Shown here: one piece after another, positions 3,523-41,829 of the stretch
Layout: the number at the start of each line of letters is the position of its first letter
Numbering within the stretch: position 1 is the stretch's first letter
From: a virus
Length of the DNA stretch: 55,046 nucleotides
Virus record (IMG/VR): IMGVR_UViG_3300020451_002514
Coordinates: 1 to 55,046 of that record
Reading direction: 5' to 3' (one strand)
Made by a program: the position numbers and the translations under genes
Notes under the pieces: model-generated
Told to the model about the DNA's origin: nothing
What the model saw: only the letters and a program-made list of their open reading frames with translations
Databases searched by the model: none

Positions 3523-3523
3523 A

Positions 3524-8384: not shown

Positions 8385-8386
8385 TA

Positions 8387-23194: not shown

Positions 23195-23199
23195 ATTTT

Positions 23200-24986: not shown

Positions 24987-24999
24987 AATTTATAAAAAA

Positions 25000-25716
25000 A
25001 TGAAAAGAATATGTTTAACATTTGATGATGGCCTTGAAAGCCATGTTTGGGCGAAAGATTTATTAAAAGATAATGGTTTGAAAGGGACGTTTTTCATATC
25101 AACTGCTAACATGTGGGAAAACCACCCCGCCGCTATTAGTTTAGGTCTAAACGAACCTGTAATTGATCTCAATCTTTTACCAGAATTTGAAGAAGACGGT
25201 TTTGAAATCGGGAGCCATACGGTAGGTCATCCCGCATTGACTAATATTGGTAATAATGATCAGGTATTACATGAGTTAATTTCAATGAATGAAATTTTGA
25301 CTAAACATGGAGTCAAAGAGATCAACACTTTTGCCTATCCCGCATATTATGCAGACTTAAGGGTTGCTAATATTGTAAAGGCTGCTGGATTTACCCACGC
25401 TAGAACGGGGTATGATTATGGTGAACCAGATTGGACAAGATGGGATTTTCTAGAAAAACCTAAAGCCCCAAGACCAAAAATAAAATACCCCGAAGACTCT
25501 GAAAATAATTTTTTGATTAAAGTTAAAGGTATATTTAATTTTATTTATAGGTATGAGGATTTTGTTGAAGATGTAGAAGCAATGGATTCAGATGAATCTG
25601 CTGTTTTTGTTTTTCATGGTTTAAAAGAAAAAACTCTTAAAGAAGATTTTAAAAAGGTTGTTGATTTTATTACCTCTGAAGATTATATTACTTGTATAAA
25701 CTTCAGAGATATTTAG
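25000..25716 (+). CDS. Polysaccharide deacetylase (NodB fold)
   Basis: A 238-residue protein from ATG 25000, 14 bases after the previous stop. Asp9 and Asp10 in 'LTFDDG' and His73 and His77 in 'SHTVGH' are the metal-binding and catalytic residues of carbohydrate esterase family 4. 'FAYPAYYADLRVANIVKAAGFTHAR' is the third motif. There is no signal peptide, so it would act on a cytoplasmic or lipid-linked sugar, removing an N- or O-acetyl group. Confidence 0.88.
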   Translation: MKRICLTFDDGLESHVWAKDLLKDNGLKGTFFISTANMWENHPAAISLGLNEPVIDLNLLPEFEEDGFEIGSHTVGHPALTNIGNNDQVLHELISMNEILTKHGVKEINTFAYPAYYADLRVANIVKAAGFTHARTGYDYGEPDWTRWDFLEKPKAPRPKIKYPEDSENNFLIKVKGIFNFIYRYEDFVEDVEAMDSDESAVFVFHGLKEKTLKEDFKKVVDFITSEDYITCINFRDI

Positions 25717-26367
25717 ATGATAAACTCCATTTTTAAACAATTTAAAAACAAACATAAAGGAGAAGAGGCGGTCTTATTTGGGAGTGGGGTAACTTTAAAT
25801 AAGTATAAACACATTGACGCAGATATTTATGTTGGAGTAAATTATGTAGGCGATTTTGAATTATTTGATCAGTCTAAAGATAATCACCAAAAATTAGATT
25901 ATTATTTTTTTGGAGATAGAGGGAGGTGTATGGATAAGTCTTTTGATGTAAAGATAGCTAAATTTGGAGCGAGTGAAGTTGATGGCTCTTCTCATGAGTT
26001 GCATTACTCAGCACAAGAAGTTGAATCATTTGGAGCTTATCCAATGTCAGTCAGAAACATGATGCCGCCTCTCTTTAATTTAGACATTTCTGAAAACCCC
26101 ACTTGTGGAGTGTCTGTGATTTTTCATGCCTTAAATTTTCTTTTTTATACAGGTGTTAAAAGAATATACATAGTAGGTTGTGATTGCAACGAGAAGGTGT
26201 GTTTTGATGGAAAACCAATTATAAACAGTGGAGATGCTTCATATGATATTTATAAAGTCGGCTGGGAAGAGGCTAAAAATTTTATAAAAAATAATAATCT
26301 CGATACAGAAATAATTTCTGTAAATCCAGTTGGACTCAAAAATTTATTTAAAGACATAAAACAATGA
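25717..26367 (+). CDS. DUF115/MptE-like or sialyltransferase-like protein
   Basis: A 216-residue protein. 'AVLFGSGVTLNKYKHIDADIYVGVNYV' and 'TCGVSVIFHALNFLFYTGVKRIYIVGCDC' fit the Rossmann-like pattern of DUF115 and bacterial sialyltransferase-related proteins (G-G-P-L ... I--N; G--A---A---G--I-I-G-D). These families transfer sugars or phospho-groups in glycan pathways. It starts directly after the deacetylase stop (TAG then ATG) and overlaps the next gene by four bases. Confidence 0.5.
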   Translation: MINSIFKQFKNKHKGEEAVLFGSGVTLNKYKHIDADIYVGVNYVGDFELFDQSKDNHQKLDYYFFGDRGRCMDKSFDVKIAKFGASEVDGSSHELHYSAQEVESFGAYPMSVRNMMPPLFNLDISENPTCGVSVIFHALNFLFYTGVKRIYIVGCDCNEKVCFDGKPIINSGDASYDIYKVGWEEAKNFIKNNNLDTEIISVNPVGLKNLFKDIKQ

Positions 26368-27107
26368 AAGAGATAATATTACCGAAAAGCCACCCTTTAT
26401 TTAAATGGTTTCCTAACTTAGAGGGTCAGGATGTAAGCTATCCTGAATTTAAGTCTTTATTTAACGAAAAGTTAACAGTATTAGCCAAAAAGTCTAACAA
26501 TTTTAATTTACAAAAAGAAATTAAAAGTGACGAGCATATTAATTGGAGATATCCTTTAATGACTCCATTCTTTATAAAAGATGATTTGAAAAATAAGAAT
26601 GTTTTGCATATTGGGTCTCGCAAGGGTGAGATTTGCGAGGGTCTTTCTCGTTATTGTAAAAGCTTAACTTCTGTTGAAATAGTTTGGGATATCCTAGAAA
26701 AAAGCTTGGATAGAAGATATTCCTGTCCAAGAGAGGCTATATGTGATGATGTTCTTAATATTAATGAATTAAATCATTTTGACTTGGTTTATTTATATAT
26801 AGCCTTTGAAATTGATCGAAGAATAATTGAACATATTTATGCTAACACTACTGGCAAGAAAACAATCTATGTTGGAGTTCCTCAACAGCTAGATAAATTT
26901 GATCCTTTTTGTTCTTGGGCTAAAGATTTCGTGGAAAAGACTAAATCCAAATTCGATTATATTCCGATACTCTTTGATGAACTTGAAGACTATCCACCAA
27001 CTCACCACACTGATTTTACTAGAGTTACAGAGTGGAGCGGAGTAGAAACCTTTTCTAATCAATCTGGCGTTATGCTATTATTTAAAATAGACATAAATAA
27101 AAATTAA
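26364..27107 (+). CDS. Class I SAM-dependent methyltransferase-like protein
   Basis: A 247-residue protein. 'NVLHIGSRKGEICEGLSRYCKSLTSVEIVWDILEKSLDR' reads as motif I (hydrophobic strand, G-x-x-x-G-E) and the acidic end of strand 2 (VEI). 'HFDLVYLYIAFEIDR' fits strand 4. The C-terminal part is unassigned. It probably methylates a sugar or is a degenerate relative. In the operon it precedes the SIS isomerase with a short gap (stop 27107, start 27113). Confidence 0.55.
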   Translation: MKEIILPKSHPLFKWFPNLEGQDVSYPEFKSLFNEKLTVLAKKSNNFNLQKEIKSDEHINWRYPLMTPFFIKDDLKNKNVLHIGSRKGEICEGLSRYCKSLTSVEIVWDILEKSLDRRYSCPREAICDDVLNINELNHFDLVYLYIAFEIDRRIIEHIYANTTGKKTIYVGVPQQLDKFDPFCSWAKDFVEKTKSKFDYIPILFDELEDYPPTHHTDFTRVTEWSGVETFSNQSGVMLLFKIDINKN

Positions 27108-27112
27108 AAAAA

Positions 27113-27673
27113 ATGAAACTAGAACTAGAAAACTTTGAAGAAAAATTTGATACAATTGTCAGCACGACCGAGTGGGGAAAACTACAAAACTTTTACAATC
27201 AAGCCGACAATATATTCTTTTTTGGACACGGTGGAAATATGGCAGTAGCGGATCATGGCGCTGTCGATTCTTCACGTTTAACAAATAAAAATATAATAGC
27301 TCCATCTAGCGCGATTACGGCAACATCTTTTATCGCTGATACGAACTTTCATGAGTGGATAAAAAATTGGCTTAAATCAAGATCTCAATATTTAAATAAA
27401 TCAAAATGTTTAGCAGTTGGTTTCTCTTGCTCTTTAAATAATGCTTCTGCAAATAGTATTGTAAATGCATTGAATTGGGCTGACGATCAAGGAATGCCTA
27501 CTGCTATGATATCTGCTCAATATAATCCATGTGGCAATCCAAATATATTAAAGATTGTACAAAATGCTTCGTACTATCATACTTCAGAAATTTTATCCTT
27601 AGCTTTAACTTATCAATTAATAAAAGGAGCAAATTTTGAATGCCCTGCGATTCTTAAAAAAAAAGTACAATAA
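27113..27673 (+). CDS. gmhA: SIS-domain phosphosugar isomerase, GmhA-like
   Basis: A 186-residue protein; E. coli GmhA has 192. 'IFFFGHGGNMAVADHGAVD' (34-52) is the phosphosugar-binding G-x-GG-S/N-A-DA-H loop. 'IAPSSAITATSFIADTNFHEWIKNWL' and 'CLAVGFSCSLNNASANSIVNALNWADDQGMPTAMIS' follow the sedoheptulose-7-phosphate isomerase pattern. It would make D-glycero-D-manno-heptose 7-phosphate, the first step of heptose synthesis. The next gene is a HAD phosphatase. The symbol rests on family resemblance plus the other heptose genes. Confidence 0.75.
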   Translation: MKLELENFEEKFDTIVSTTEWGKLQNFYNQADNIFFFGHGGNMAVADHGAVDSSRLTNKNIIAPSSAITATSFIADTNFHEWIKNWLKSRSQYLNKSKCLAVGFSCSLNNASANSIVNALNWADDQGMPTAMISAQYNPCGNPNILKIVQNASYYHTSEILSLALTYQLIKGANFECPAILKKKVQ

Positions 27674-27676
27674 GTG

Positions 27677-28072
27677 ATGAGCGAAATAAAACAGACTCCT
27701 ATTGGTTTTGAACATGAAGAAAATAATCTAGCGATTGATTTTGATGGAGTTATACATTCTTTTGATAAAGGTTATCATGATGGTACTTGTTATGGTGAAA
27801 TAATAGCAGGTGCTGAAAACTCTATAAAAGAATTAAGCAAAAAATATAATATTATTATTTTTACCGCAAAAGTAAAACCTAATAGACCTATAGTAAATGG
27901 TAAAACAGGACTTCAACTTGTTCAAGAGTGGTTGACTAAAAAAGGATTGATTGATTACATTGATGAAATAACCTCAGAAAAGCCTAGAGCAAAGTTTTAC
28001 ATAGATGACAAAGGTATAAGGTTTACCTCTTGGGAGCAGACTATGAATGATTTGAAAAATTTAGATGAGTAA
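27677..28072 (+). CDS. HAD-superfamily phosphatase (GmhB-type candidate)
   Basis: A 131-residue protein from ATG 27677 (GTG 27674 is the alternative). Asp21-Phe-Asp23-Gly-Val is HAD motif I, Thr63 in 'IIFTAK' motif II, Lys106 in 'PRAKFY' the likely motif III lysine, and Asp110-Asp111 motif IV. Being next to the GmhA-like gene, it may remove the C7 phosphate from heptose 1,7-bisphosphate. Other sugar or nucleotide phosphatase roles are possible. Confidence 0.65.
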   Translation: MSEIKQTPIGFEHEENNLAIDFDGVIHSFDKGYHDGTCYGEIIAGAENSIKELSKKYNIIIFTAKVKPNRPIVNGKTGLQLVQEWLTKKGLIDYIDEITSEKPRAKFYIDDKGIRFTSWEQTMNDLKNLDE

Positions 28073-28718
28073 AATTATTAAAGCTGTTATTCCTGTCAGA
28101 AAAGGTTCTGAAAGAGTTAAGAATAAAAATGTAAAAAAATTCGGGGATTCGTCTCTTTTAGAAAATAAAATTGAAACCCTTAAAGAAGTTAAAGGGTTAG
28201 ATTCCATAGTGGTTAATTCTGACTGTTTTGAAATGTTAGATATAGCCGTAAGATATGGCGTAGAGGCTCAAAAAAGAGATGACTACTTTGCTAGCTCAAA
28301 AGTTAATAATAGTGAATATTTTGAACATATAGGTGAAGTGACAAATGCAGATCACATAATGTATGCTCCTGTTACTTGCCCTTTTGTCGAAGTTAAAACT
28401 ATAGAAAAATGTATATCTGAATATCAACATCTAGCACAAAATGATAGTGTGATGACAGCATTTGATGTAAAACATCATATGTGGCTTGACGGAAAGCCAA
28501 TAAATTATGATCCTAAAAATGCTCCAAATAGCCAAGATTTACCTGAAATACTTGGAGTTCACTATGGTGTTTCTATCATAAGTAAGGAATTGATGATTGA
28601 AAATAGAAATGTTGTTGGATATAATCCCCTTTTTATAAAATTAAATGAAATGGAAGCAATTGACATAGATACAGAAATAGAATTTATGTTTGCAGATTAT
28701 ATGTTTTGGAAAAAATGA
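28065..28718 (+). CDS. Acylneuraminate/CMP-sugar cytidylyltransferase (NeuA-like)
   Basis: A 217-residue nucleotidyltransferase. The start 'KAVIPVRKGSERVKNKNVKKFGDSSLLENKI' carries the R-x-x-S-x-R-x-x-x-KN motif of CMP-sialic and CMP-Kdo synthetases. 'VVNSD' and 'YAPVTCPF' (family: L-P-T-P) are further markers. It activates an acidic nine- or eight-carbon sugar, or a related sugar, with CTP. No sialic acid synthase (NeuB) or NeuC is visible in the window, so the sugar must come from the host or from genes elsewhere. Confidence 0.78.
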   Translation: MSKIIKAVIPVRKGSERVKNKNVKKFGDSSLLENKIETLKEVKGLDSIVVNSDCFEMLDIAVRYGVEAQKRDDYFASSKVNNSEYFEHIGEVTNADHIMYAPVTCPFVEVKTIEKCISEYQHLAQNDSVMTAFDVKHHMWLDGKPINYDPKNAPNSQDLPEILGVHYGVSIISKELMIENRNVVGYNPLFIKLNEMEAIDIDTEIEFMFADYMFWKK

Positions 28719-29782
28719 AAAAAGTAATAGTTACAGGAGTTACAGGTCAAGATGGTAGTAATATGGTCGATTATCTTTTGAGAGAAACTGATCATATGAT
28801 TATTGGAGGCGTTAGAAGATTAAGTGTTAAAAATCATCAGAACATTGAACACTTACATGATGAAGATAGGTTTTTCTTAATTGATTTAGATGTAACTGAT
28901 GCTCAAAATACTGATGAGGTAATAGCTGAACACAAGCCAGATTATTTTATTAATTTTGCTGCTAATTCTTTTGTTGGTACAAGTTGGAAAATGCCAACTC
29001 AACACATGGAGACGAATGCTTTAGCTGTGTTACATCAACTTGAAGCTATAAAAAGACATTGTCCTGATTGTAGATACTATAATGCTGGTTCTTCCGAAGA
29101 ATTTGGAGATGTTATTGAGACACCTCAAAGTGAAAAACATCCACTTAGACCTCGCAGTCCTTATGGAGCTTCTAAATGTTCGGCAAGACATTTAGTAAAA
29201 GTTTACAGAGATTCATATGATTTGTATGCTGTTCAGGGATGGTTATTTAATCACGAAGGTACAAGGAGAGGGGAAGAGTTTGTCACTAGAAAAATTACAA
29301 CTAATATAGCTCGAATTTCTTATGAATACGCGCACGAGAAACAATTTAAACCTTTGACCCTTGGGAATGTTGATTCAAAACGCGATTGGAGTGACTCTGA
29401 AGATTTCATGGATGGTATTTGGCGCATGCTAAACCAAGATCAATTTGACTCTTACGTGGATAATAATTATAAGCCAAAAGAATATGTTCTTTCATCTGAT
29501 GAAACTCATACAATTAGAGAGTTTGTAGAGGAGGCGTTTCACATTGCAGGATTTCATAGGTCAATGTGTAGGTGGGAGGGTAAAGGAGTTCATGAAAAAT
29601 ATTATCATGGAGAGGACTTGTTGGTAGAAATTAGCGATAAATTCTATAGACCAGCAGAGGTTGATTTATTATACGGTGATTCTTCAAAAGCTAGAAATGA
29701 ATTAAACTGGAAGCCTCAAACAGATTTTACAGGATTAGTTACCAAAATGGTTAAAAATGATTTAGAACTTGCATCTCTTTAA
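28715..29782 (+). CDS. gmd: GDP-mannose 4,6-dehydratase
   Basis: A 355-residue protein from ATG 28715, in an ATGA overlap. It has Gly8-Val-Thr-Gly-Gln-Asp-Gly (NADP-binding GxTGQDGS), 'GSSEEFGD' with the catalytic Ser-Glu, 'SPYGASK' (Tyr-x3-Lys) and 'LFNHEGTRRGEEFVTRKI', a signature I regard as specific to Gmd (FNHESPRRGE-FVTRKI). It converts GDP-mannose to GDP-4-keto-6-deoxymannose, precursor of fucose, rhamnose or perosamine. It is the last gene of the glycan operon; no GMER partner is seen nearby. Confidence 0.92.
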   Translation: MKKVIVTGVTGQDGSNMVDYLLRETDHMIIGGVRRLSVKNHQNIEHLHDEDRFFLIDLDVTDAQNTDEVIAEHKPDYFINFAANSFVGTSWKMPTQHMETNALAVLHQLEAIKRHCPDCRYYNAGSSEEFGDVIETPQSEKHPLRPRSPYGASKCSARHLVKVYRDSYDLYAVQGWLFNHEGTRRGEEFVTRKITTNIARISYEYAHEKQFKPLTLGNVDSKRDWSDSEDFMDGIWRMLNQDQFDSYVDNNYKPKEYVLSSDETHTIREFVEEAFHIAGFHRSMCRWEGKGVHEKYYHGEDLLVEISDKFYRPAEVDLLYGDSSKARNELNWKPQTDFTGLVTKMVKNDLELASL

Positions 29783-29802: not shown

Positions 29803-30285
29803 ATGTCCAGTGGTTTTAAAACGTGTAAATCTTGTGGGAACAGCAAGGTTTTTTCTTTAGTGCAAAAATGCTCTTGCGGATTTGTATTTTATGAAAGAAG
29901 AAGACGTAAAGGTGAAAAAGTGAAAAGGAAACCAAACGAAAAATTTCGTCGTCTGAAAAAATTCGTTACAAGAAGTTTTTCGGATATAAAATTTTCTGAA
30001 GAGGAGTTAAGTAGGGAGGTTCATGTGGCTAAAGTTATGGTCGAAATTTGTTACTCTGATTATGATTTTATAGCAAAGTATACAATTCCTAGCTGGGTTA
30101 GAGATAAAAATACTTTACTTTGGTTTAAAACAACAGACGGTAAAAAATATTTAAAACGCAAATACGAAGAGTATTTATTTAAACCTGAAGCTAATGAAGA
30201 TATTTTTGTTGACGAGGGTGAAATAAAAGGCGAGAATATAATTTATAAGAAAAGAAAGAGTTTAAGAGATTTTTTAGATGAGTAA
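29803..30285 (+). CDS. Zinc-ribbon protein, unknown function
   Basis: A 160-residue basic protein. The N-terminus has two Cys pairs, 'CKSCGN' and 'CSCGF', forming a zinc ribbon, followed by an Arg/Lys-rich stretch (YERRRRKGEKVKRK). The rest is helical and charged and ends DFLDE. It opens the replication cluster and overlaps the RecA-like gene by eight bases, so a nucleic-acid-binding role in replication or recombination is likely. No family recognised. Confidence 0.6.
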   Translation: MSSGFKTCKSCGNSKVFSLVQKCSCGFVFYERRRRKGEKVKRKPNEKFRRLKKFVTRSFSDIKFSEEELSREVHVAKVMVEICYSDYDFIAKYTIPSWVRDKNTLLWFKTTDGKKYLKRKYEEYLFKPEANEDIFVDEGEIKGENIIYKKRKSLRDFLDE

Positions 30286-31405
30286 GAAAAACGATAAAGG
30301 TAAGAGCGCTAGTGATTTTTCTAGCGAATATTTTAAGTCTAACAAAGACGATCACTATAATTATGCAAAAGCCGCAGAAGAATATTTAGTTTCTAGTGGA
30401 TCTATGTATATGGATCATGTTCTTGGAGGTGGGTTTGGTGCAGGGTTGCATAGATTCATAGGAGCTAATGAGGGTGGTAAAACCAATGCAGCTCTTCATG
30501 TAATGTTTAATATGTTCAAAAGTGTAAGTAAATCTAAGGGTTTATTTATAAAAGCAGAGGGTAGACTTAGCAAAGAGATAAAAGAAAGATCTGGATTGAA
30601 ATTTGTATATGATCCATCGGAATGGGTTAGTGGAACATGTTTAGTTTTTGAATGTAATGTTTTTGATACCGTGATAGACTATTTAAGAGGTTTGCTTAAG
30701 AATAATAGCGAGGATGAAAGATTTTGTATTATCATAGATAGTATGGATGGGATGATAGCTAAAGATGATCTAGAGAAAAGCACAAATGAAGCTAGAAAAG
30801 TCGCCGCAGGAGCTTTAATTACTTCAGATTTTTTGAAAAGGGTTAGCCTCGGTATGTCAAAGTTTGGGCATATGTGCATTATGATATCTCAAGTCAGATC
30901 ATCAATTAAAGCTAGTCAATATACAAAAAGTGATCCCAATAATCAGACTAACAGTAGTGGAGGTAATGCTATTTTACACTATCCTGATTGGATTTTAGAG
31001 TTTAGAAAGAGAAGGCAGTCTGAGCTTTTCTTACAAGACCAGAGTGCGATTTTAAGTTTAAGTAATAAACCAATAGGTCATATAGCTACAGTCAAAATAT
31101 TAAAATCTACAAATGAAACTACAGGACAGACTGTTCAATATCCTATAAAATATGGAAGAACAAATGGTAGATCTATATGGGTTGAAAAAGAGGTTATAGA
31201 TATGCTTCTGATGTGGGCCTTTTTAGTGAAAAGAGGGGCTTGGATTACAGTTGACTCAAGTTTACTTGAACACTGCAAGTCTCATAAATTAGATATGCCA
31301 GAAAAATTTCAAGGCACTAATAAAATTTTAGAGAATCTTGAAGAAAACCCTAAAATTAAACAAATTCTAAAAGACTTTGTAGAAAAAGAAATAATTGGAA
31401 AATGA
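30278..31405 (+). CDS. RecA/UvsX-like recombinase
   Basis: A 375-residue ATPase. 'GANEGGKT' (62-69) is the Walker A loop, 'FCIIIDSMDG' (149-158) Walker B, and 'MCIMISQVRSSI' plus the following Thr/Ser/Asn-rich loop fit the L1/L2 DNA-binding part of the RecA core. 'MYMDHVLGGGFGAGLHRFIGANEGGKT' mirrors the RecA/UvsX opening. It should form filaments on ssDNA and drive recombination-dependent replication. Upstream overlap is eight bases and downstream overlap is ATGA. Confidence 0.85.
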   Translation: MSKKNDKGKSASDFSSEYFKSNKDDHYNYAKAAEEYLVSSGSMYMDHVLGGGFGAGLHRFIGANEGGKTNAALHVMFNMFKSVSKSKGLFIKAEGRLSKEIKERSGLKFVYDPSEWVSGTCLVFECNVFDTVIDYLRGLLKNNSEDERFCIIIDSMDGMIAKDDLEKSTNEARKVAAGALITSDFLKRVSLGMSKFGHMCIMISQVRSSIKASQYTKSDPNNQTNSSGGNAILHYPDWILEFRKRRQSELFLQDQSAILSLSNKPIGHIATVKILKSTNETTGQTVQYPIKYGRTNGRSIWVEKEVIDMLLMWAFLVKRGAWITVDSSLLEHCKSHKLDMPEKFQGTNKILENLEENPKIKQILKDFVEKEIIGK

Positions 31406-31815
31406 TTTTTCTTTGTACAAATGGTCGCAAAAAGAAAATAGTAAACTCAGTAAAGTATCTAATAGACTGGGATGCTGACTGTAAAAGCGGCATACAAAAA
31501 ACAGTAAAAAATGTTTTACATGATAGTTGGTTTGCTGATGTTGTCTTTGAGGAATTTCCAGTAGCAGGAACTAGGCTGACTTTTGATTTTTTTAACGCTA
31601 CAAGAAATATAGCAGTTGAAGTTGACGGGAATCAGCATTACAAGTACAACAAGTTTTTTCACTCTAATTCCAGACAAAATTTTTTATCTCAATTGCAAAG
31701 AGACGAAAAGAAAGAATATTTTTGTGAAATTAATAATATAACTCTGCTGAGGATTTTGGAATCTGAAATAGTAGAAGGACAATTCCCAAATAAAACTTTT
31801 TTGAATAATATATAA
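31402..31815 (+). CDS. Vsr/PD-(D/E)XK-like endonuclease
   Basis: A 137-residue protein. 'TRLTFDFFNATRNIAVEVDGNQHYKYNKFFHSN' resembles the active site of small very-short-patch or DUF559-like nucleases: Asp62, then Glu73-Val-Asp-Gly-x-x-His-Tyr (73-80). It is followed by a helix with paired charged residues and 'ITLLRI', the usual last strand. A resolvase, nickase or repair nuclease is plausible in this RecA-DnaB setting. Specificity cannot be deduced. Confidence 0.65.
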   Translation: MIFLCTNGRKKKIVNSVKYLIDWDADCKSGIQKTVKNVLHDSWFADVVFEEFPVAGTRLTFDFFNATRNIAVEVDGNQHYKYNKFFHSNSRQNFLSQLQRDEKKEYFCEINNITLLRILESEIVEGQFPNKTFLNNI

Positions 31816-31816
31816 T

Positions 31817-32041
31817 ATGTCTCTTGTAGAAGAAGAAAGCGCATTACCACAATCTTTGCTACAAAAACTCTATGACTCAACAGGGTCATCAACAGGGGGA
31901 AATAAAGGGTTTTTACTCGTGTATGTAAACTCTGAAGGAGAGCCTGTTATAAGCGGTAAAACTGAAAACTCTTGTGTAGAAATGGCTTTGACTAAGTTGT
32001 TAGAATTGAGTCTTAAAAATGATGAAAGCTTAAGTAGATGA
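31817..32041 (+). CDS. Small hypothetical protein between endonuclease and helicase
   Basis: A 74-residue protein with a Ser/Gly stretch (DSTGSSTGGNKG) then 'FLLVYVNSEGEPVISGKTENSCVEMALTKLLEL', consistent with a small strand-helix fold. It starts one base after the endonuclease stop and overlaps the helicase start by four bases. Its position suggests a replication accessory factor, for example a helicase loader, but no family is recognised. Confidence 0.55.
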   Translation: MSLVEEESALPQSLLQKLYDSTGSSTGGNKGFLLVYVNSEGEPVISGKTENSCVEMALTKLLELSLKNDESLSR

Positions 32042-33549
32042 TTAGCTCACAAAGTTTAGAGAAAAACGTTTTAAGCTGCATACTTCAACACCAACACAAG
32101 TGGGAGGAGGTAGCTACCTATCTTAATGAAGATGACTTTTATAGCGAAGACTCTAAAGTTAATTGTTCTATATTCAAATTGCTAAAACACTCTCTAGATA
32201 ACGCTGAGAGGATAGACGAACATATCTTAATAGAAAGATTAAAAGCTTTAGGTGTATCTTTTCCTGATAGTATTGATGTCGCTGAATACATCAGGCAAAT
32301 GGCATTCATACCTATCTCTGAAGACTTACTTTTACCTAATGTAAAAGAACTTAAAAAATATTCAGCTAGAAGACATATCTATAATGCTTGCACTAAAGTT
32401 AGTAGACATGTAAAAAACATAGACCCTAATTATAAATACTCAGAGATTATAGATGAGTGCGACAAGATTTATAATACTGAGCTTCAAAATTTTGAAGGTG
32501 GAGAAACTGAAACTCAAAACTTATTTGAGTTAATGTCTCCTGTTATTGAGGAAAGAGGAGAGAACCCTCAAACAGAATTCGGAATGATGGGACCACATAA
32601 AAGAATAAATGAAATATATGGGTCTTTGTTATTAGCAGGAAACATTTCGGTTGTGGTTGCAAGATCGGGAGTTGGTAAAACGAATTTTTGCATGGACTTT
32701 ACTACTAAAGTTTCTAAAAACTATAATGTGCCTGTTGTTCATTTTGATAATGGAGAAATGAGTGAGGAAGAACTTATTTTCAGGCAAGCTTCTGCGCTAA
32801 CAGGTTTGCCTATACATCTTTTTCAAACTGGAGAATGGAGGACACATTCTCGCAATAATATGTCAGCAGAAGAAGTTACTAAGACTGTTAGGGAAACTCT
32901 TGATAAAGTAAAAGGTATGAAATTTTACTATGAAAATGTTGCAGGAATGACTCCAGACGAAATGTGTTCTCTTCTTAAAAGGTTGTACTATACAAAAGTA
33001 GGTAGAGGTAATCCTATGATTTTTAGTTTTGATTACATTAAAAGTGATTTTTCTAAAATGGGAGATAACCCATGGCAGCAAGTTTCTTATATGGTTCATA
33101 GATTTAAACAGGCTATACATAGAGAACTTTGTTTTGAAGGAAACCCTTGTGTATCTATGATTACTTCAGTGCAAGCTAATAGATACGGCATAACAAACAA
33201 TAGAGGTGCAGATACTATAATTGATGATGAAAGTGTTGTTTCTCTTTCTGATGGTATTACACAATTTTGCTCTCATCTCTTTCTTTTGAGAAAAAAGGTA
33301 GTGGAAGAAATTCAACAAGATGGCATTGATAGAGGGACTCATAAATTTATAAATTTAAAATCAAGACACTTGGGCAAAAATCCATTGAGAGCTATAAATG
33401 ACGTAGAACTTTTAGACGGTTCTAAAAGAAAAAATTACATCAATTTAGAGTTCAAAAACTTCTCTGTTAAAGAGAGAGGAGATTTGCAAGATGTTGTAGA
33501 CTCTCAAAGAGGGACTAATGCTCACATTCATCAACAGCTAACTGATTAG
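32038..33549 (+). CDS. dnaB: Replicative DNA helicase, DnaB-like
   Basis: A 503-residue protein with an N-terminal helical domain ('SSQSLEKNVLSCILQHQHKWEEVATYLNEDDFYSEDSKVNCSIF', the DnaB-N pattern) and a RecA-like motor. Walker A is 'ARSGVGKT' (208-215). 'VVHFDNGEMSEEEL' is motif 1a with the conserved E-M, 'IFSFDYIKS' Walker B, and 'HLFLLRKK' and 'FINLKSRHLGKNPLRAI' the late motifs with the Arg finger. It unwinds DNA at the fork, 5' to 3', with the primase next door. Coding starts in an ATGA overlap. Confidence 0.9.
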   Translation: MISSQSLEKNVLSCILQHQHKWEEVATYLNEDDFYSEDSKVNCSIFKLLKHSLDNAERIDEHILIERLKALGVSFPDSIDVAEYIRQMAFIPISEDLLLPNVKELKKYSARRHIYNACTKVSRHVKNIDPNYKYSEIIDECDKIYNTELQNFEGGETETQNLFELMSPVIEERGENPQTEFGMMGPHKRINEIYGSLLLAGNISVVVARSGVGKTNFCMDFTTKVSKNYNVPVVHFDNGEMSEEELIFRQASALTGLPIHLFQTGEWRTHSRNNMSAEEVTKTVRETLDKVKGMKFYYENVAGMTPDEMCSLLKRLYYTKVGRGNPMIFSFDYIKSDFSKMGDNPWQQVSYMVHRFKQAIHRELCFEGNPCVSMITSVQANRYGITNNRGADTIIDDESVVSLSDGITQFCSHLFLLRKKVVEEIQQDGIDRGTHKFINLKSRHLGKNPLRAINDVELLDGSKRKNYINLEFKNFSVKERGDLQDVVDSQRGTNAHIHQQLTD

Positions 33550-33551: not shown

Positions 33552-34589
33552 ATGAGTTACAAAGAAATTTTAGAAAATTTGGGTTATAAGCTTAGTGACC
33601 ATGGTAGTTACTGGAGAACAAGTGCGCTATATAGATCTGGAGATAATCCAACTGCATTACAAATTTATAAAGATTCAGGAGTCTGGAAAGATTACGTTGA
33701 GGATAGTATATTTTTACCTTTTGAAGCTTTGGTGCAAAAAACTACAAAAACTTCCAATGTAAAATCTATATTAAAAGACCTTAAAAACAGCGCATTAAGT
33801 GTAAAAACTGAGAAACGTTTATTGAAAGAAGAGAAAACATACGATGCCTCCTGTTTAAAGAGATTGTTGCCTCATTATGATTTTTATTTAAATAAAAATA
33901 TATCTAAGCAGACACTTTTAGATTTTAAATGTGGGTTAGCTCATTCTGGACCGATGTATCAAAGAATGGTTTTTCCTGTTTTTAGAGATGACCAAAAGAT
34001 TCATGGTTTCTCTGGTAGAAAAATAACTAACGATGATAGACCTAAATGGTTTCACAAAGGTAAAACTGCTAATTGGTTTTATCCTTATTTTACTGTCGAT
34101 GAAGTGGGCAAACAAATAAACTTAAAAAGGCAAGTTCATATAGTAGAATCTATAGGAGATTGCATGGCTCTTTATGAATGTGGGATAAAAAATGTTTTAG
34201 TTTCTTTCGGTTTGAATATGTCGCCAAAGTTTATTTCAAGATTAACAGGTTTAAATTTACAAAACATTTATATTTCTTATAATAATGACAGCGACTCAAA
34301 AACAAATAGAGGCTTTGAGGGTGCAGTTAAATCAATTTTCAAACTCGTAGATGCCGTAGACTTTGAAAAAATATATTTCTGCCCTCCTGACAGCAATGAT
34401 TTTGGAGATATGACAAAAGAGCAAATATACTTTTATGAAGATCGGTGTTTCTCTGCCGATCATCAAACATCTATGCATAAGGTTATATCTATCGCCGAAG
34501 ACATGGATAAAAAAGGTGTTAATAAATCGTTTTCTCAATCTTTAAAAAAGCTAAAGAAGAAATATAAATTTTATTATGGGCAGCCATGA
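33552..34589 (+). CDS. dnaG: DnaG-type DNA primase
   Basis: A 345-residue protein. Residues 1-60 (YWRTSALYRSGDNPTALQIYKDSGVWKDYVE) fit the CHC2 zinc-finger fold, but the zinc-binding Cys and His are gone. 'YQRMVFPVFRDDQKIHGFSGRKI' is the conserved RNA-polymerase-domain segment (RI-FPI-D--G---GF-GR). 'VHIVESIGDCMALYECGIKNVLVSFG' is the TOPRIM Glu strand, followed by 'IYISYNNDSDSKTNRGF' for the Asp pair. It makes RNA primers for the neighbouring helicase and polymerase. Confidence 0.85.
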   Translation: MSYKEILENLGYKLSDHGSYWRTSALYRSGDNPTALQIYKDSGVWKDYVEDSIFLPFEALVQKTTKTSNVKSILKDLKNSALSVKTEKRLLKEEKTYDASCLKRLLPHYDFYLNKNISKQTLLDFKCGLAHSGPMYQRMVFPVFRDDQKIHGFSGRKITNDDRPKWFHKGKTANWFYPYFTVDEVGKQINLKRQVHIVESIGDCMALYECGIKNVLVSFGLNMSPKFISRLTGLNLQNIYISYNNDSDSKTNRGFEGAVKSIFKLVDAVDFEKIYFCPPDSNDFGDMTKEQIYFYEDRCFSADHQTSMHKVISIAEDMDKKGVNKSFSQSLKKLKKKYKFYYGQP

Positions 34590-35616
34590 AAACAAACCGT
34601 TATCAGCGTCTAGAATAAAAACATTACAAACTTGTTCTTGGCAATACTGGTGCAAATATCACTTAAAACTTCCTGATAAATCAAATGATGGTAGTTTGCG
34701 TGGAACTATATGCCATGCTATTTTTGAAAACCTTGGTAACCCAAGGCACAAAAAACACTATACAAGGATAATTAAAACTCAAAATACTTACGCTTCTCCA
34801 CCTATTAAGAGAATGGTTGAGGCTTACGCAAAAAAGCACGGTATTGATGATTTTGAAAATATGGACCTTATTAACAGGATGACTGTCGAGGGGTTGAATT
34901 GTGATTTTTTTGGTTCTAAAGATGGTAAGCCTACAGAGTCTATAAGTGAAAAAGATTTTGATATTTCTGTAACAGAAGGTGATAAAAATTATAGAATATT
35001 GGGTTTCATAGATAAGTTATTTCTTTTTAAAAGAAGAGGCCTTGCAATAATTAGAGACTTTAAAACATCTAAACAAATGTTTTCTGGCAAAGATTATACA
35101 GATAATATTCAAAATTTAATGTACTGCTTGGCTGTAAAACATCTCTACCCAGACTTCCTTAAGAGACAAATGGAGTTTTTATTTTTGAAGTTTGACTGCA
35201 ACAATGAAGGTATGATGAGGATGGATAACTTAGATAAAGAAGAGTTAGAAGGCTTTGAGTATTTTTTGACAGGTGTTCAAGAAATTATTAATAATTTTAA
35301 TTCAGATTCTGCAACAAAAAATTTAGCATACAACAAAGGTTACTTAGGTAGAGATGATGGGTTTGCTGGTAGAGTTGTTTGTGGTAGAGCGAGTTACGAA
35401 GGTCAACTTAAAAGAGATGGAACTTTAATGTGGCATTGCCCTTTTAAGTTTCCAAAGAAGTTTTATGTGCTTACAGATAAGGATGGAGAAGTTGTATCTT
35501 CCTCTGAAGACAAGAAAACTTTAGAAGCTAAAAAGACTGATGATCATGTCATAGAAATGAGAAATTATGATGGTTGTCCTGCTTTTTCTTTTGACAAAGT
35601 TGATGACTTGCTTTAA
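34576..35616 (+). CDS. Cas4/RecB-like PD-(D/E)XK exonuclease
   Basis: A 346-residue protein. 'LSASRIKTLQTCSWQYWCKYHL' is the RecB/Cas4 opening helix with Cys20 and Cys26; 'RGTICHAIFE' holds the metal-binding His47; Asp146 in 'GFIDKLFL' and Asp161-Phe-Lys163 in 'IIRDFKTSK' complete the active site (H-D-D-x-K). Later Cys269 and Cys288 could join the first pair in an Fe-S cluster, as in Cas4 and AddB. It overlaps the primase by 14 bases. A 5'-end resection role in recombination is inferred. Confidence 0.8.
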   Translation: MGSHENKPLSASRIKTLQTCSWQYWCKYHLKLPDKSNDGSLRGTICHAIFENLGNPRHKKHYTRIIKTQNTYASPPIKRMVEAYAKKHGIDDFENMDLINRMTVEGLNCDFFGSKDGKPTESISEKDFDISVTEGDKNYRILGFIDKLFLFKRRGLAIIRDFKTSKQMFSGKDYTDNIQNLMYCLAVKHLYPDFLKRQMEFLFLKFDCNNEGMMRMDNLDKEELEGFEYFLTGVQEIINNFNSDSATKNLAYNKGYLGRDDGFAGRVVCGRASYEGQLKRDGTLMWHCPFKFPKKFYVLTDKDGEVVSSSEDKKTLEAKKTDDHVIEMRNYDGCPAFSFDKVDDLL

Positions 35617-35625: not shown

Positions 35626-36327
35626 GTGATTATTCCACTTTTTAAAACTAGTTACAGCATTGGCAAATCTCTTTTAAGAATTGAAGATATTATTGACATA
35701 GCTCAATCAAATAAACTTAAAAAAGTAACGCTTGTCGAAGATAATTTTTACGGATTTAGATCTGCAAATTCAGCATTTCTTCATGCTAACATACCTATGG
35801 TCTATGGCGTTAGACTGCCTGTGTTTCAAAGCGAGTCAGAAAGATCAAGTAAATTAGTTTTCTTTGCTAAAAATAACAGAGGTCTTAACAATCTTAGAAA
35901 TTTATATTCCAAGTCAAAGCTAAGTGCCTTGGAAGTGTTAAATATTTCAAATCTTGAGGATTCAGAGCTTGAGGATATAAAAATAGGAGTGCCTTTTTAT
36001 GATTCCTATATTTATAATAACATTTTTCATTTTGGTTTGTGCGAATTGAATTTAGAAAAGTTTGACCACTTTTATATGGACGAGGACAACAATCATCCTT
36101 TCGACTTTCAAATCAAAGAAAGGTTAAATAGTTTAAACATAAAAACACAAAAAACAAAAACAATTTACTATAGGAACAGGGAAGACTTTGAAGCTTTTCA
36201 AATGTATAAGGCTGTCTGTGCCAGAAAGCAGGGTAGAGTTCCAACTTACAGTAAACCAAATTTAAATGACTTTTGTTCAGATGACTTTTGCTTTGAATCA
36301 TACTTAGAAAACAATGCTTCCATATAA
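35626..36327 (+). CDS. PHP-like domain of C-family DNA polymerase (separate gene, degenerate)
   Basis: A 233-residue protein from GTG 35626. The start 'IIPLFKTSYSIGKSLLRIEDIIDIAQSNKLKKVTLVEDNFYGFRSANSAFLHANIPMVYGVRLPV' follows the DnaE PHP pattern (HLH--YS--DG... A-----ALTD--N-YG---F--A---I-P--G-E). The metal-binding HxH is PLF here and TDH is VED, so the site looks dead. 'DFEAFQMYKAVCARKQGRVP' fits the later helix of DnaE. It probably serves as a structural piece of the polymerase encoded just downstream. Confidence 0.65.
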   Translation: MIIPLFKTSYSIGKSLLRIEDIIDIAQSNKLKKVTLVEDNFYGFRSANSAFLHANIPMVYGVRLPVFQSESERSSKLVFFAKNNRGLNNLRNLYSKSKLSALEVLNISNLEDSELEDIKIGVPFYDSYIYNNIFHFGLCELNLEKFDHFYMDEDNNHPFDFQIKERLNSLNIKTQKTKTIYYRNREDFEAFQMYKAVCARKQGRVPTYSKPNLNDFCSDDFCFESYLENNASI

Positions 36328-36928
36328 TCAAAAATATTTAGTTATAGACACTGAGACTGAGGGTCTTAATTTACATTCTTCAAAAACTTGGCAGCTTTCT
36401 TGGATTGTTTGTCAGGGTAATAAAATCTTAGAAGAACATGATGAGTTTATAACACACAAAAATTTAAATATCCCAGAAGTTGTCAAAAAAATGACTGGAT
36501 TCAATTGGGATAAGTATAACGAAAAATCAAAATCTTTATCTAAAGTTTGGTCAAAGTTTGAACAGTATTTATATGATCCACAATATATTATAGTGGGCCA
36601 AAATCTTTTAGGTTTTGATGTTTATATGTTGGCTTTATTGCAGAAAATGTTAGGCCAACAACCTGACTATTCTTACTTGCTTAGAATTTATGATACAAGA
36701 GCCTTAGCTAAAGCTTATAGAGAAAATCTGGATAAACCTAAAGGCAACTTATTAAGTTGGCAGTATAAACTTATAAATGATAGAAGCTTAAAGTCTAAAG
36801 TTTCTCAAGGTACATTACTAAAATTCTTTGACATTGATCACGACCCCTCTAGATTGCACAACGCTCTTTATGACATAAAAATGTGCTTTGAGGTGTTTTG
36901 TGAGCTTAAAAAAAGAATGGTTTTATGA
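36314..36928 (+). CDS. DnaQ-like 3'-5' proofreading exonuclease (DEDDh)
   Basis: A 204-residue protein. Asp12-Thr-Glu14 in 'LVIDTETEGLNL' is motif I, 'VGQNLLGFDVYML' motif II with its Asp, and 'RLHNALYDIKMCFEVF' motif III with His and Asp (H-A--D). These are the four acidic residues and histidine of epsilon/PolC-type exonucleases. It overlaps the PHP gene by 14 bases and the polymerase gene by four, so it is probably the editing subunit of this polymerase. Confidence 0.9.
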   Translation: MLPYNQKYLVIDTETEGLNLHSSKTWQLSWIVCQGNKILEEHDEFITHKNLNIPEVVKKMTGFNWDKYNEKSKSLSKVWSKFEQYLYDPQYIIVGQNLLGFDVYMLALLQKMLGQQPDYSYLLRIYDTRALAKAYRENLDKPKGNLLSWQYKLINDRSLKSKVSQGTLLKFFDIDHDPSRLHNALYDIKMCFEVFCELKKRMVL

Positions 36929-39501
36929 TTTTTGATGATTGTACTATATATGATGACTGCGAACCAGCAGGAGTAGAGCTTCCAAAAACAGTTGTTAAAT
37001 CTAGCAAGCTAAAGGAGATAGGTCTTAGCCCTGATAGCTCCACGAAAGAAATTTTGTATGAGTTGGCTCGCAAAGGATTAAAAGGAAAAGGTATTACTAA
37101 ATTTGAAAATAAAGATATTTATTTTGAAAGAACCAAGCAGGAATTAGAAACCTTTGAAGAGTTAGGCTTTACTGATTATATATTACTAAACTGGGATGTT
37201 TTAAACTTTTGTCATGATAACGAGATTCCAACTGGAGCAGGTAGAGGCTCTGCGGCAGGATCTCTTGTATTATATTTATTGGGAGTGACAAATATTGACC
37301 CTATTCCTAATAGTTTATTTTTTGAGCGATTCGTATCTAAATCCAGAGCTAAAAAAGTTCAAGATAAAAACGGCAAAGAGTTTCTTGTAGGAAGCCTTCT
37401 GCCTGATGTAGATTCTGATATTTCTTATGACCAAAGACATAAGGTTATCTCATATATAGAAAGACAGCACGAAGGAAAGACTGCAAAAATATTAACGTTC
37501 AATACATTCAGTGCTAAACTTTGTATCAAAGAAGCTACAAAATATTTTGATGAAGCTACTGAAGAAAGAGCCATGAGAACTTCAGATTCTATACCTAAGT
37601 TACATGGTCAAGTTTTAAGTCTTGAGGCTGCTTTTGAGGAGAGTGATAAATTTAGAGCATGGGCTAGAAAACATAAAAAAACTTACAAAAATGCATTAAA
37701 AGTCGAAGGTCTACCTAAAAATACTGGAGTCCATCCATCTGGTATCGCTATTTGCTCTCAAAAAATATCAGATGTAGTTCCACTTCAAAAAACAAAAGAT
37801 GGAGATCTTGTTACAGGTTACAACATGGATGATGTTGCAGATTTAATGGTTAAGTTTGATATTCTAGGACTGAGAACTTTGACCATTGCTCACAAATGTT
37901 GCGAAAAGGTTGATATTAATATAGATGATATTGACCCTAATGACCCTTACATATATGAAAAACTTCAAGATTTTAAACACCCAGCAGGGTTGTTTCAAAT
38001 TTCTGCCGAGACAAACTATAGAGTGTGCAGAGATGTAAAACCTGAAAATTTAACTGAGCTATCTGACGTTATAGCCTTGGCTCGACCTGCTGCTTTAGAA
38101 CATGTAGAGCGATACATTGAACAAAAAAGAGCTTTAACTGACTTAAATCTACATCCAGAATTAGACAAGATTCTTTCATGGTCTAAAAATGTAATCTTAT
38201 TCCAAGAGCAAATTATGCAAATAGCTAATAAAGTTTTTGGGTTTACTTTAGAAGAAGCGGAAACGCTTAGAAGAATAGTTGGAAAGAAAAAAGTTGATCA
38301 AATGCCACAATGGCGACAAAAGATTTTTGATGCCGCAGAACAAAAAGGTTTAGATGAAAGAGTGGCAGAGTTTTATTGGGTATCATTAGAAGCCTCTGCA
38401 CACTACTCTTTTAATAAATCTCATAGTTTTGCTTATGCTGATTTAGCAGCCAAAACTGTTTACCTTAAATATAAATATCCACAACAATTTTTCTTGTCTA
38501 TACTAGAATGTTCTGAATTTGAGCCAGACCCTCTAGAAACTATCAGCTTGGTAAGTCAAGAATTAAAATCATTTAAAATAAAATTATTGCCTCCATGTTT
38601 ATATAAATCAGACTTTGATTTTAAGATAGAGGGTAGAAATATAAGATATGGATTAAGATCTATAAAAGGAGTTTCCGATAAAAACTTAAAAAGCTTAATT
38701 GATTTTAGAGGCTTTCAGTTTAACAATCGGTATGAAATTTTTATTGCTGCTAAAGAGTGTGGTATTCCTATAAATGTTTTATCTTCCCTGATACAAGCGG
38801 GACTGATGGATAATAGCTCAGAGGATAATCCTATATCGAGAAGTAAGTTAGTCTTGCAAGCTCAGTCCTTTAATCTTTTGACAGATAGAGAGAAGAGAAA
38901 TTTTTCTCGCTTGGCTCAGAGATTAGGTTTCAATATACTAAAAGCCATAGAAAAGTCTCTGGCTGATAAAATTTTAGGTGACGATGGTAAAATTTTAATG
39001 AAAGATAGTCGTTTTAAAACTTTCTACGATAAGTATGAGAAATATAGAGAGATTTATTTTAAAAATAGAAACTTCGAAAAATTTGCTTCTTGGACGTTTG
39101 AAAATAACCTTTTGGGTTTTTCTTACTCTTACGACTTGAAAGAATGTTTTGAAGATCACGAGGATATAGATAGATTACATTATCTATCTGATGTAGAAGA
39201 TTTAGCAGATAGAACTAAATTTTCTTCTGTATGCCAAGTTAAAGATTTTTTTACTAAAGAGTCTCAAGCTGGAAACAAATACATGATCATGACCCTCTCT
39301 GATAGCACATCAACAAAAAGTATGATGTTCATAGATGGCAGAAATAATGAAAAATTTAGTGACTTTATGAAGTCAAATAAACTAAAGAAAAATGATGTAG
39401 TTCACTTGACTGCTAGTAAATCAAATAATACAATTTTCATTGATCATTTAGAGATAAAAGGTCCAGAAATTTACATGTACAAGAGGCAAGTTAAAAAGTA
39501 A
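36925..39501 (+). CDS. C-family DNA polymerase (DnaE-type alpha subunit) lacking its PHP domain
   Basis: An 858-residue protein; DnaE is usually about 1160. It begins just before the polymerase core: 'RTKQELETFEELGFTDYILLNWDVLNFCHDNEIPTGAGRGSAAGSLVLYLLGVTNIDPI' is the DnaE palm/thumb segment. Asp163 and Asp165 in 'LPDVDSDIS' and Asp312 in 'VKFDILGL' are the catalytic aspartates. 'LFQEQIMQIA' and 'HYSFNKSHSFAYADLAAKTVYLKYKYP' are also DnaE signatures. A C-terminal OB-like region follows. It is the phage replicative polymerase. Confidence 0.92.
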   Translation: MIFDDCTIYDDCEPAGVELPKTVVKSSKLKEIGLSPDSSTKEILYELARKGLKGKGITKFENKDIYFERTKQELETFEELGFTDYILLNWDVLNFCHDNEIPTGAGRGSAAGSLVLYLLGVTNIDPIPNSLFFERFVSKSRAKKVQDKNGKEFLVGSLLPDVDSDISYDQRHKVISYIERQHEGKTAKILTFNTFSAKLCIKEATKYFDEATEERAMRTSDSIPKLHGQVLSLEAAFEESDKFRAWARKHKKTYKNALKVEGLPKNTGVHPSGIAICSQKISDVVPLQKTKDGDLVTGYNMDDVADLMVKFDILGLRTLTIAHKCCEKVDINIDDIDPNDPYIYEKLQDFKHPAGLFQISAETNYRVCRDVKPENLTELSDVIALARPAALEHVERYIEQKRALTDLNLHPELDKILSWSKNVILFQEQIMQIANKVFGFTLEEAETLRRIVGKKKVDQMPQWRQKIFDAAEQKGLDERVAEFYWVSLEASAHYSFNKSHSFAYADLAAKTVYLKYKYPQQFFLSILECSEFEPDPLETISLVSQELKSFKIKLLPPCLYKSDFDFKIEGRNIRYGLRSIKGVSDKNLKSLIDFRGFQFNNRYEIFIAAKECGIPINVLSSLIQAGLMDNSSEDNPISRSKLVLQAQSFNLLTDREKRNFSRLAQRLGFNILKAIEKSLADKILGDDGKILMKDSRFKTFYDKYEKYREIYFKNRNFEKFASWTFENNLLGFSYSYDLKECFEDHEDIDRLHYLSDVEDLADRTKFSSVCQVKDFFTKESQAGNKYMIMTLSDSTSTKSMMFIDGRNNEKFSDFMKSNKLKKNDVVHLTASKSNNTIFIDHLEIKGPEIYMYKRQVKK

Positions 39502-39507: not shown

Positions 39508-41829
39508 ATGGTTCAATTACCCTTTACTCCGCATATAGAAGGTGTTCTCCAAAAGTCTAAAGATTTATCTGTAATCTTAGAAAGAAACGGTGTTGATATA
39601 GATATATTATTTCACTGCTTTATTAGTGATTTGAGTCTATCTTGCACTTCTATATTTAAAAAAATTGGTGTTGATTATAATGAACTGTTAAAAGATTCAA
39701 GAAGCGTTTTACATAAAAAAAGGAAAAACAAAAATATATCTGATAAGTTTAAAACAGATGCCAGAAAGTTTTTAAAGTTTTGCGAGAAGCTTTGCAAAGA
39801 TACTTACTCTTTGGATTACATTCCGCCAGAGGTGATGTTGATGAATTTTTTTGATGAGCAATTTACTCCTAAAGTTTTAAAAGAATCTTTTCCAGAGGGG
39901 ATAGAGGCTGCTGATAGCGTAAGGTTTGGTGTAGTTGCTGAGTGTGCTTTAGTTATAAAAGATTTTGAAGCAGAAAAAATAGAATCAAAACTAAAAGAGC
40001 TTGAGGAGACTCCTGACAACTGGATCGATATGTTCGATAACAATGAGATCCTTTCACAATTTGCTGAAAATCTTAACATAAAAGCTGCTGCTGGGGAGTT
40101 TGATAAGATTGTTGATTATGATGGCAAGATAGATGAATTAGCTACGATATTATGTAGAAAAAAGAAACCAAATGCGATATTGGTTGGCCCAGCAGGTACA
40201 GGTAAAACCTCGCTGGTAGAAGGGTTGGCGACAAAAATAGCAGCAGGAGATGCTCCAGAGCTTATTGCTAATAAAGTAATTTATTCTGTTAGTTTATCTA
40301 GTATGGTTGCTGGCACTGAGTATAGGGGTCAGTTTGAAAAAAGGTTAGAAGACTTTGTAAATGAGGCTAAGAAATATACAAACTTAATTTTATTTATAGA
40401 TGAGATACATACTTTGATTGGAGCGGGTGGAGCTAACAATAATTCTCTTGAAGCATCTAATATTCTAAAGCCAGAATTGGCTAGAGGAACAATAAGTTGT
40501 ATCGGTGCTACAACTATAAATGAGTATACAAACACAATAAAGAAAGACACCGCCCTTGACAGAAGATTTGAAAGAGTTGTGGTAAAAGAGCCTTCTAAAT
40601 TTCAGATGGAGAAAATTTTACCTACTATTGTTTCTTATTACGAGGCATTTCACGCTGTAAAGTATAGCGATGAATTTTTAAATAATATTATTAAGTATTG
40701 CGAAAAGTACACTCCAAACAAATATTATCCAGATAAAGCTATTGATGTTATAGATCATTGCGGCGCTCAAGCTAAAGTTGCATTTTGGGATGTAAAACCT
40801 TCAATTAAAGAAATGCAAACAGAGATAGTTGAATCTGCGCTTCATCCAGAAAAAGATCATTCAGCCTTGATAGAAAAGCTAAATAAGAGTTTAGAAAAGT
40901 GGGTTGAATCAGATGAAACAACAAATAAACCAGAAGTAACTATCTTTCATTTAAAAGAATTTTTCGACAGGAAAATTAATCCGCTAAGTAAAAAGAAAAA
41001 AATAAATAAAGTTTTTGATTGTGTCTCTAACTTTTTTGTAGGCCAAGCTAATGTGCTTGAGGAGTTAAAACATGAAATAGTTTTAAGTAGTATAGGTGTT
41101 AGAACAACTAGAAAATTTTCTACTCCAGAATGTTATGTTGTGAGCGGTGATGACTCTAGTGGTAAATCATTATTTTGTGAGTTGTTAGAAGACTCTTTGC
41201 AAAAACATGGAGTAAATGTTTTATCTTATAATGGTATACATTTTTCAGATAATTTTTCTCCACATAAAATAGCATCTTCCCAAGGTAACAATACTTCGAT
41301 ATGCGAAAAGATTGTTATAACGCCAAATAGTGTTTTGATTATAGATGATTTTCATAAGATAGACAAAACTGCCGTGCCTATTTTTAATCAAATACTCAAA
41401 GAGGGTAAAATACAAATGAACAATGGGGATGTTGCTGATTTTTCTAATTGCAAAATATTTTTAACTAGCTGCTTGTCTCATACTAGCCAACTTGGCTTTA
41501 ATATAGAAAGATCTCGTAATGATGATCCTCTTATACATAAAGATATTTATTCTTTAATTAAGAACTCTTTTATTTTAAATGAATTAAAAACAAAAGATTT
41601 GCGTAGAATTTTGTGGAACAAGCTTAGAAACATAAAAAACAATTTAGAAGATAATGGTGTTTACTTGGATTTTACAGTAAAATATATTTGTACTAATGTA
41701 AATGATATAAAAAATGACTCTTCGCCAATCAAAAGTTTAAATCAATTAGTGTCATCAAAAATCAAACCATTTATTTCTGATTGTATAGCTAATGGCAATG
41801 ATAAAATAAAACTTTTTGTTGAAAAATAA
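39508..41829 (+). CDS. ClpA/ClpB-like double AAA+ protein
   Basis: A 773-residue Hsp100 protein. The N-terminal ~150 residues look like a Clp N-domain. D1: Walker A 'GPAGTGKT' (227-234), 'GTEYRGQFEKRL' pore-loop region, Walker B 'LILFIDEI' (293-300), 'LDRRFERV' Arg finger. No middle coiled-coil domain follows, so it is closer to ClpA than ClpB. D2: Walker A 'GDDSSGKS' (547-554) and Walker B 'VLIIDDF' (609-615, Asp for the catalytic Glu). I see no clear ClpP-binding loop. It presumably unfolds or remodels proteins; target unknown. Confidence 0.85.
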   Translation: MVQLPFTPHIEGVLQKSKDLSVILERNGVDIDILFHCFISDLSLSCTSIFKKIGVDYNELLKDSRSVLHKKRKNKNISDKFKTDARKFLKFCEKLCKDTYSLDYIPPEVMLMNFFDEQFTPKVLKESFPEGIEAADSVRFGVVAECALVIKDFEAEKIESKLKELEETPDNWIDMFDNNEILSQFAENLNIKAAAGEFDKIVDYDGKIDELATILCRKKKPNAILVGPAGTGKTSLVEGLATKIAAGDAPELIANKVIYSVSLSSMVAGTEYRGQFEKRLEDFVNEAKKYTNLILFIDEIHTLIGAGGANNNSLEASNILKPELARGTISCIGATTINEYTNTIKKDTALDRRFERVVVKEPSKFQMEKILPTIVSYYEAFHAVKYSDEFLNNIIKYCEKYTPNKYYPDKAIDVIDHCGAQAKVAFWDVKPSIKEMQTEIVESALHPEKDHSALIEKLNKSLEKWVESDETTNKPEVTIFHLKEFFDRKINPLSKKKKINKVFDCVSNFFVGQANVLEELKHEIVLSSIGVRTTRKFSTPECYVVSGDDSSGKSLFCELLEDSLQKHGVNVLSYNGIHFSDNFSPHKIASSQGNNTSICEKIVITPNSVLIIDDFHKIDKTAVPIFNQILKEGKIQMNNGDVADFSNCKIFLTSCLSHTSQLGFNIERSRNDDPLIHKDIYSLIKNSFILNELKTKDLRRILWNKLRNIKNNLEDNGVYLDFTVKYICTNVNDIKNDSSPIKSLNQLVSSKIKPFISDCIANGNDKIKLFVEK

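Follow-up and report, generated by a model that had tools for sequence, protein, structure and literature searches.

In the DnaE type of replicase, the main DNA-copying enzyme is normally one long protein, and the function of its first domain, PHP, is poorly understood. In Escherichia coli, the α subunit of DNA polymerase III (DnaE1) is one chain with a polymerase core and an inactive PHP fold, and an active DEDDh exonuclease, ε, is a separate protein. PolC, the DNA polymerase III of Gram-positive bacteria, is also a single chain and unites exonuclease and PHP in one enzyme. The one-chain phage DnaEs that we examined (about 1000–1175 amino acids, aa) likewise include the PHP region. Here we describe a 55-kb, metagenome-derived IMG/VR virus record (IMGVR_UViG_3300020451_002514; 55,046 nucleotides (nt), the whole of which we call the window) that has the polymerase core, PHP fold and separate DEDDh exonuclease of the E. 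coli system, but in which PHP and core are separate proteins. We consider it very probable, from sequence comparison and structure prediction, that the genes for the PHP protein (PHP), the exonuclease (EXO) and the core (POL) encode the replicative DnaE-type polymerase of a large lineage of phages; its α would consist of PHP and POL, between whose genes that for the proofreading exonuclease lies.

Some described phages share part of this layout. In Pbunavirus (L293; handles of this form are our locus labels) and Kylevirus (L311), a separate exonuclease gene lies directly upstream of the phage DnaE, with a 4-nt overlap in Pbunavirus and a 1-nt gap in Kyle; however, the DnaE is one chain of 1000–1040 aa that includes PHP, and the trees place both exonuclease and core outside the clades of the split family. 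The DnaEs of Staphylococcus phage PhiSepi-HH3 (L307) and Rossellomorea phage phiT1 (L313) occupy two open reading frames (ORFs), but the cut is within the polymerase core and not at the PHP boundary, and no exonuclease gene lies between the halves. Alicyclobacillus phage KKP_3916 (L294) also has a broken DnaE with cuts inside the core; its parts lie in four or more ORFs, with further ORFs among them; all carry a hypothetical annotation, and introns or inteins may be present. No description of PHP as a separate subunit was found in the literature searched, which left out two key phage-replicase surveys, and tblastn of PHP and EXO against 50,697 reference phage records gave no match.

A preliminary description of the window, made from its sequence, had placed a PHP-like protein, a DEDDh exonuclease and a DnaE-type core in this order with two short overlaps, and the three ORFs lie exactly there (Table 1). 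It had also named GAGRGSAAGS and LPDVDSD as DnaE-like core motifs; both are present in POL, which scores 418 bits over 570 positions against DnaE and 53 bits over about 95 against PolC. POL matches the Pfam families DNA_pol3_alpha (PF07733, 3e-58), finger (PF17657, 5e-34) and HHH_6 (PF14579, 4e-14, residues 551–632), and its catalytic residues D161, D163 and D312 are all present and invariant in homologues; as far as the alignment tells, the active site is intact. Residues 37–820 align to positions 291–1038 of PRK05673, the TIGR00594 match reaches 1018 at the POL C terminus, and the protein terminates soon after the OB domain. The order PHP, Pol, HhH and C-terminal OB is thus that of DnaE, here at the level of gene order; the PHP of a DnaE, which is part of the same polypeptide, is a separate ORF in all complete loci. 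PHROG_405, a phage DNA polymerase whose family model is a single chain with both parts, is the best family for the PHP ORF (positions 50–263) and for POL (317–1069), which are two proteins here.

The assignment of the first ORF as PHP-like, which a lack of structural similarity to PHP domains would have overturned, held up. The ORF matches Pfam PHP (E=3e-9) and starts at PHP residue 1, with no N-terminal OB. The best match in the Protein Data Bank (PDB) of a family profile built from 14 homologues is Thermus DnaE, and an AlphaFold2 model based on 74 homologues has a mean predicted local distance difference test score (pLDDT) of 92. The best 20 Foldseek matches of this model all belong to DnaE or PolC (best E=3e-12, E. 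coli DNA polymerase III α; query TM-score, TMq, 0.65–0.80), and other PHP proteins come after these. Alignment of the ORF to one-chain DnaEs shows that all nine metal ligands of an active polymerase PHP (HHDHEH[C/H]DH) have been lost. Because the metal site is gone, the PHP protein should not be a nuclease.

EXO, by contrast with this loss in PHP, retains the residues expected of a nuclease. It matches Pfam RNase_T (E=1.7e-11) and PHROG_192 (1e-21), and the DEDDh residues D12, E14, D102, H182 and D187 are invariant in an alignment of 14 diverse homologues, in agreement with the earlier assignment; the active site is, by these residues, intact. Its best PDB match is the PolC exonuclease 2p1j (E 1e-8). 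The chain stops 17 residues past the last Asp and, unlike E. coli ε, has no C-terminal tail for binding the PHP of α. In the exonuclease tree, the EXOs of the split loci form one clade with no affinity to PolC seen, and the tree does not fix their sister group.

To define where the chain is cut, we measured, in 47 one-chain DnaEs, how many residues separate the end of the PHP-profile match from the start of the POL-profile match, and compared this with the number that the split PHP and POL supply. The difference averages +0.1 (range −6 to +6). Because the residue bookkeeping matches these one-chain enzymes, PHP plus POL is, on this count, a complete DnaE N-terminal region: one chain cut in the PHP/palm linker, with no residues lost or gained. 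We then modelled as one chain PHP, the EXO DNA translated in the wrong frame and POL (residues 1–767); PHP and POL share a frame, and stops in the intervening linker of roughly 200 residues were read as Gly. Both domains were confidently predicted, the linker was disordered (pLDDT about 25) and the predicted TM-score (pTM) was 0.70. The model has a TM-score, normalized to target length, of 0.76–0.77 against the DnaEs of E. coli (2hnh) and Mycobacterium tuberculosis (5lew). Because 0.76 exceeds the share of 2hnh made up by the polymerase part alone (only about 70%), PHP is also superposed on DnaE. The prediction supports docking of PHP on POL in trans at the canonical DnaE position; of the three-protein complex that the preliminary description had proposed to predict, it covers PHP and POL.

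Relatives were gathered by scanning 2.9 million viral contigs and 84,980 genomes, including phage contigs in bins of metagenome-assembled genomes, which yielded 213 distinct POL loci. The bins hint that the hosts may be Bacteroidota. PHP, EXO and POL occur in this order as separate genes in 200 of them, which confirms that the three-gene layout is due neither to chance nor to sequencing error. No reading frame in the 213 loci matches two of the three profiles, and the POLs of the split family form one clade (support 100/100), within which PHP identity to the window sequence drops to about 25%. PHP diverges faster than POL across the same distant relatives. In 12 of the 13 loci without PHP, a contig end coincides with the start of the locus or lies no more than about 0.5 kb from it; the other, L331, is taken up below. 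Among the 108 loci covered by our junction statistics, the start of POL overlaps the stop of EXO in 85 (by 4 nt in 54 and by 1 nt in 31), which suggests that their translation may be coupled.

Several relatives carry enlarged or interrupted forms of these proteins. PHP has a C-terminal extension of about 180 aa in L366:241-1560 and L395:2907-4322 that resembles, by eye, small PD-(D/E)XK-like proteins, and the POL in L194:216-711 has a 165-aa N-terminal extension that by eye is like a small PD-(D/E)XK-like protein (EVKT motif). In L005:5971-9867, POL is broken at FNK^SHS by an apparent split intein, the N half of which ends in a CLLPETLVE... segment and the C half of which begins ...HNFYAEGLVSSN; between the POL halves lies a separate ORF (7751-8698) for a putative homing endonuclease, and the sister locus L110 has no interruption. 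POL is also broken or enlarged near model position 494–500 (up to 581) in L119-L122, L387, L391, L393, L408, L420, L421 and L423, as a single longer ORF in L387 and L393 and as two ORFs in some of the others. Model position ~494–500 is probably a recurrent intein site, occupied by continuous and split forms.

Each of 14 relatives of 95–211 kb has exactly one C-family polymerase and none has PolA or PolB. The Pfam PHP model, where significant, matches once per relative record, in a frame whose length fits the PHP ORF. The preliminary description had allowed that a full DnaE might be encoded elsewhere and that this locus is a remnant; no second DnaE was found in the window record or the 14 larger relatives, all of which are fragments or of uncertain completeness.

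An enzyme of three parts assembled after translation, one of the two readings offered in the preliminary description, is the best supported, by the conserved separate genes, their overlaps, the residue bookkeeping and the predicted placement of PHP. In such an enzyme, the overlapping genes would keep synthesis of the three proteins matched, and PHP would bind POL in trans, in the position that it holds within a one-chain DnaE, rebuilding α. The docked PHP may act as a scaffold or stabilizer, and EXO would excise misinserted nucleotides, replacing the PHP nuclease and the ε subunit. In bacteria, loss of the PHP metal site goes with a separate exonuclease (PMC3666897, PMC12926913), and in E. coli the inactive PHP is a structural element required for stability and activity (PMC3666897). 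The split loci, with their lost PHP site and separate DEDDh exonuclease, follow the bacterial rule.

Several observations weigh against this three-part enzyme. The docking model joined both parts in a single chain, and DnaE folds are familiar to AlphaFold, so the model supports docking in trans but falls short of proof. Because EXO lacks the ε tail, only gene order points to its membership of the complex. L331 has a POL of the family with a different upstream neighbourhood and shows no PHP or EXO in the 4 kb upstream or elsewhere on its 54-kb contig, which is a fragment. No known sliding clamp was recognized: the bacterial-type gene was not found, and the search for the T4 type, which had no working control, is uninformative. 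Finally, other genes, amounting to up to 3.4 kb, lie in one or both junctions in 28 of the 108 loci, which shows that the genes can do without strict translational coupling. With unrelated genes interposed in this way, the three products must act as separate polypeptides.

By eye, the junction cargo includes homing-endonuclease-like, GMP-reductase/IMPDH-like, SET-like and cupin-like genes. It is found in L038:6100-7014, L095:7669-8694, L111, L163, L174, L183 and L192, and also in L170, L179, L212, L059, L069 and L160.

The alternative that survives best, although we regard it as unlikely, is that PHP no longer serves the polymerase and, for example, binds a host factor, with POL working without it and with or without EXO. 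The separateness of PHP, the loss of all its metal ligands and its faster divergence would fit such a role, but PHP is always retained beside EXO–POL, the linker bookkeeping is exact and PHP is predicted to sit on POL in the canonical place; the structural need for PHP in the E. coli enzyme (PMC3666897) also speaks for a continued link with POL.

A relationship to PolC was the other reading in the preliminary description, which noted that an exonuclease between PHP and polymerase recalls PolC and suggested an intermediate between the two layouts. The gene order does resemble PolC, but the insertion point does not: the PolC exonuclease interrupts PHP between profile positions of about 78 and 82, whereas in the split loci EXO comes after a complete PHP (profile position 248), about 170 residues later. 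The PolC hallmarks of an exonuclease within PHP, a PolC-type core and an OB N-terminal to PHP are all absent from the split loci, in which the OB is C-terminal as in DnaE; in PolC it is N-terminal (PMC3919608). Phylogeny of the core with DnaE and PolC, which had been put forward as a check, recovered the split family as its own clade but did not settle its deep placement: the backbone of the C-family tree is not resolved, and neither split+PolC (p=0.26, so that a basal position is formally allowed) nor split+DnaE2 (p=0.61) is rejected by approximately unbiased (AU) tests. Thus, the best PDB match of EXO and the AU test, which permits the split group and PolC on one side, leave some room for an evolutionary intermediate in which the exonuclease had arrived between PHP and polymerase and was incorporated into PHP only later. 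With the insertion point, the OB position, the much higher score of the core to DnaE and the EXO tree all against it, we think such an intermediate highly improbable. We give equally little credence to descent of the clade from a C-family stage with separate PHP, exonuclease and polymerase, before DnaE and PolC fused them differently. The origin that we prefer is a later splitting of a DnaE that was once one chain, because the bookkeeping is exact and because PHP is joined to the beginning of the palm in every other C-family polymerase that we examined.

Joining of PHP, EXO and POL into one polypeptide by frameshifting or protein splicing is more improbable still. The gene overlaps are short and apparent split inteins occur in the POL of some relatives (L005), but we rejected programmed frameshifting or intein joining at the junctions, given the inserted genes, the lack of any fused frame and a residue count too tight for the ends of PHP or POL to hold intein halves. 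That a full DnaE was broken in this genome by assembly error, frameshift or decay has next to no probability: although the record is metagenome-derived and annotated polymerase genes are known to include some fragmented by frameshift (PMC3919608), the same split recurs in >200 distinct, widely diverged loci, which refutes this reading, the EXO gene sits inside the break, the catalytic residues of POL and EXO are conserved and relatives have no other DnaE.

The genes around the split polymerase are also conserved: a block of UvsX, DnaB, primase, PD(D/E)XK, PHP, EXO, POL and Clp is present, in full or truncated at its ends, in nearly all loci (Table 1). We know of no replication role for the ClpA/B-like AAA+ protein.

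Table 1. Positions of the split polymerase genes, their overlaps and the conserved neighbours in the window
Feature	Position	Strand	Description
PHP gene	35626..36327	+	GTG start, 233 aa; stand-alone DnaE PHP domain, predicted catalytically dead
EXO gene	36314..36928	+	ATG start, 204 aa; DEDDh 3'-5' exonuclease, putative proofreading subunit
POL gene	36925..39501	+	ATG start, 858 aa; DnaE core without PHP: palm, thumb, fingers, HhH, OB
PHP/EXO gene overlap	36314..36327	+	14 nt; short overlaps usual in relatives without inserts
EXO/POL ATGA start-stop overlap	36925..36928	+	4 nt; may mediate translational coupling
UvsX-like recombinase	30278..31405	+	PHROG_97 8e-32; conserved neighbour
DnaB-like replicative helicase	32038..33549	+	PHROG_19 8e-33; conserved neighbour
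DnaG-type primase	33552..34589	+	PHROG_47 7e-18; conserved neighbour
PD-(D/E)XK nuclease	34576..35616	+	PF12705 1e-15; conserved upstream neighbour
ClpA/B-like AAA+ protein	39508..41829	+	PHROG_4871 3e-100, TIGR02639 8e-102; directly after POL, kept in most relatives

Elsewhere in the window, an HNH homing endonuclease (31402-31812) lies immediately upstream of the replication block, and the small and large subunits of ribonucleotide reductase are adjacent at 16132-18749. A sugar/surface-polysaccharide gene cluster (19595-29782 and 50311-50805) encodes a glycosyltransferase, nucleotide-sugar epimerases, an aminotransferase, a phosphoheptose isomerase and a heptose-phosphate enzyme, and five large ORFs (273–889 aa) at 380-8384 have no PHROG match.

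Taken together, the split loci show that α can be cut at the PHP/palm linker and remain cut over great divergence. A separate PHP would allow its contribution to stability, processivity and exonuclease docking to be measured directly, by adding or omitting the protein, and the three genes probably encode the replicase of a widespread group of phages, so far seen in metagenomes.

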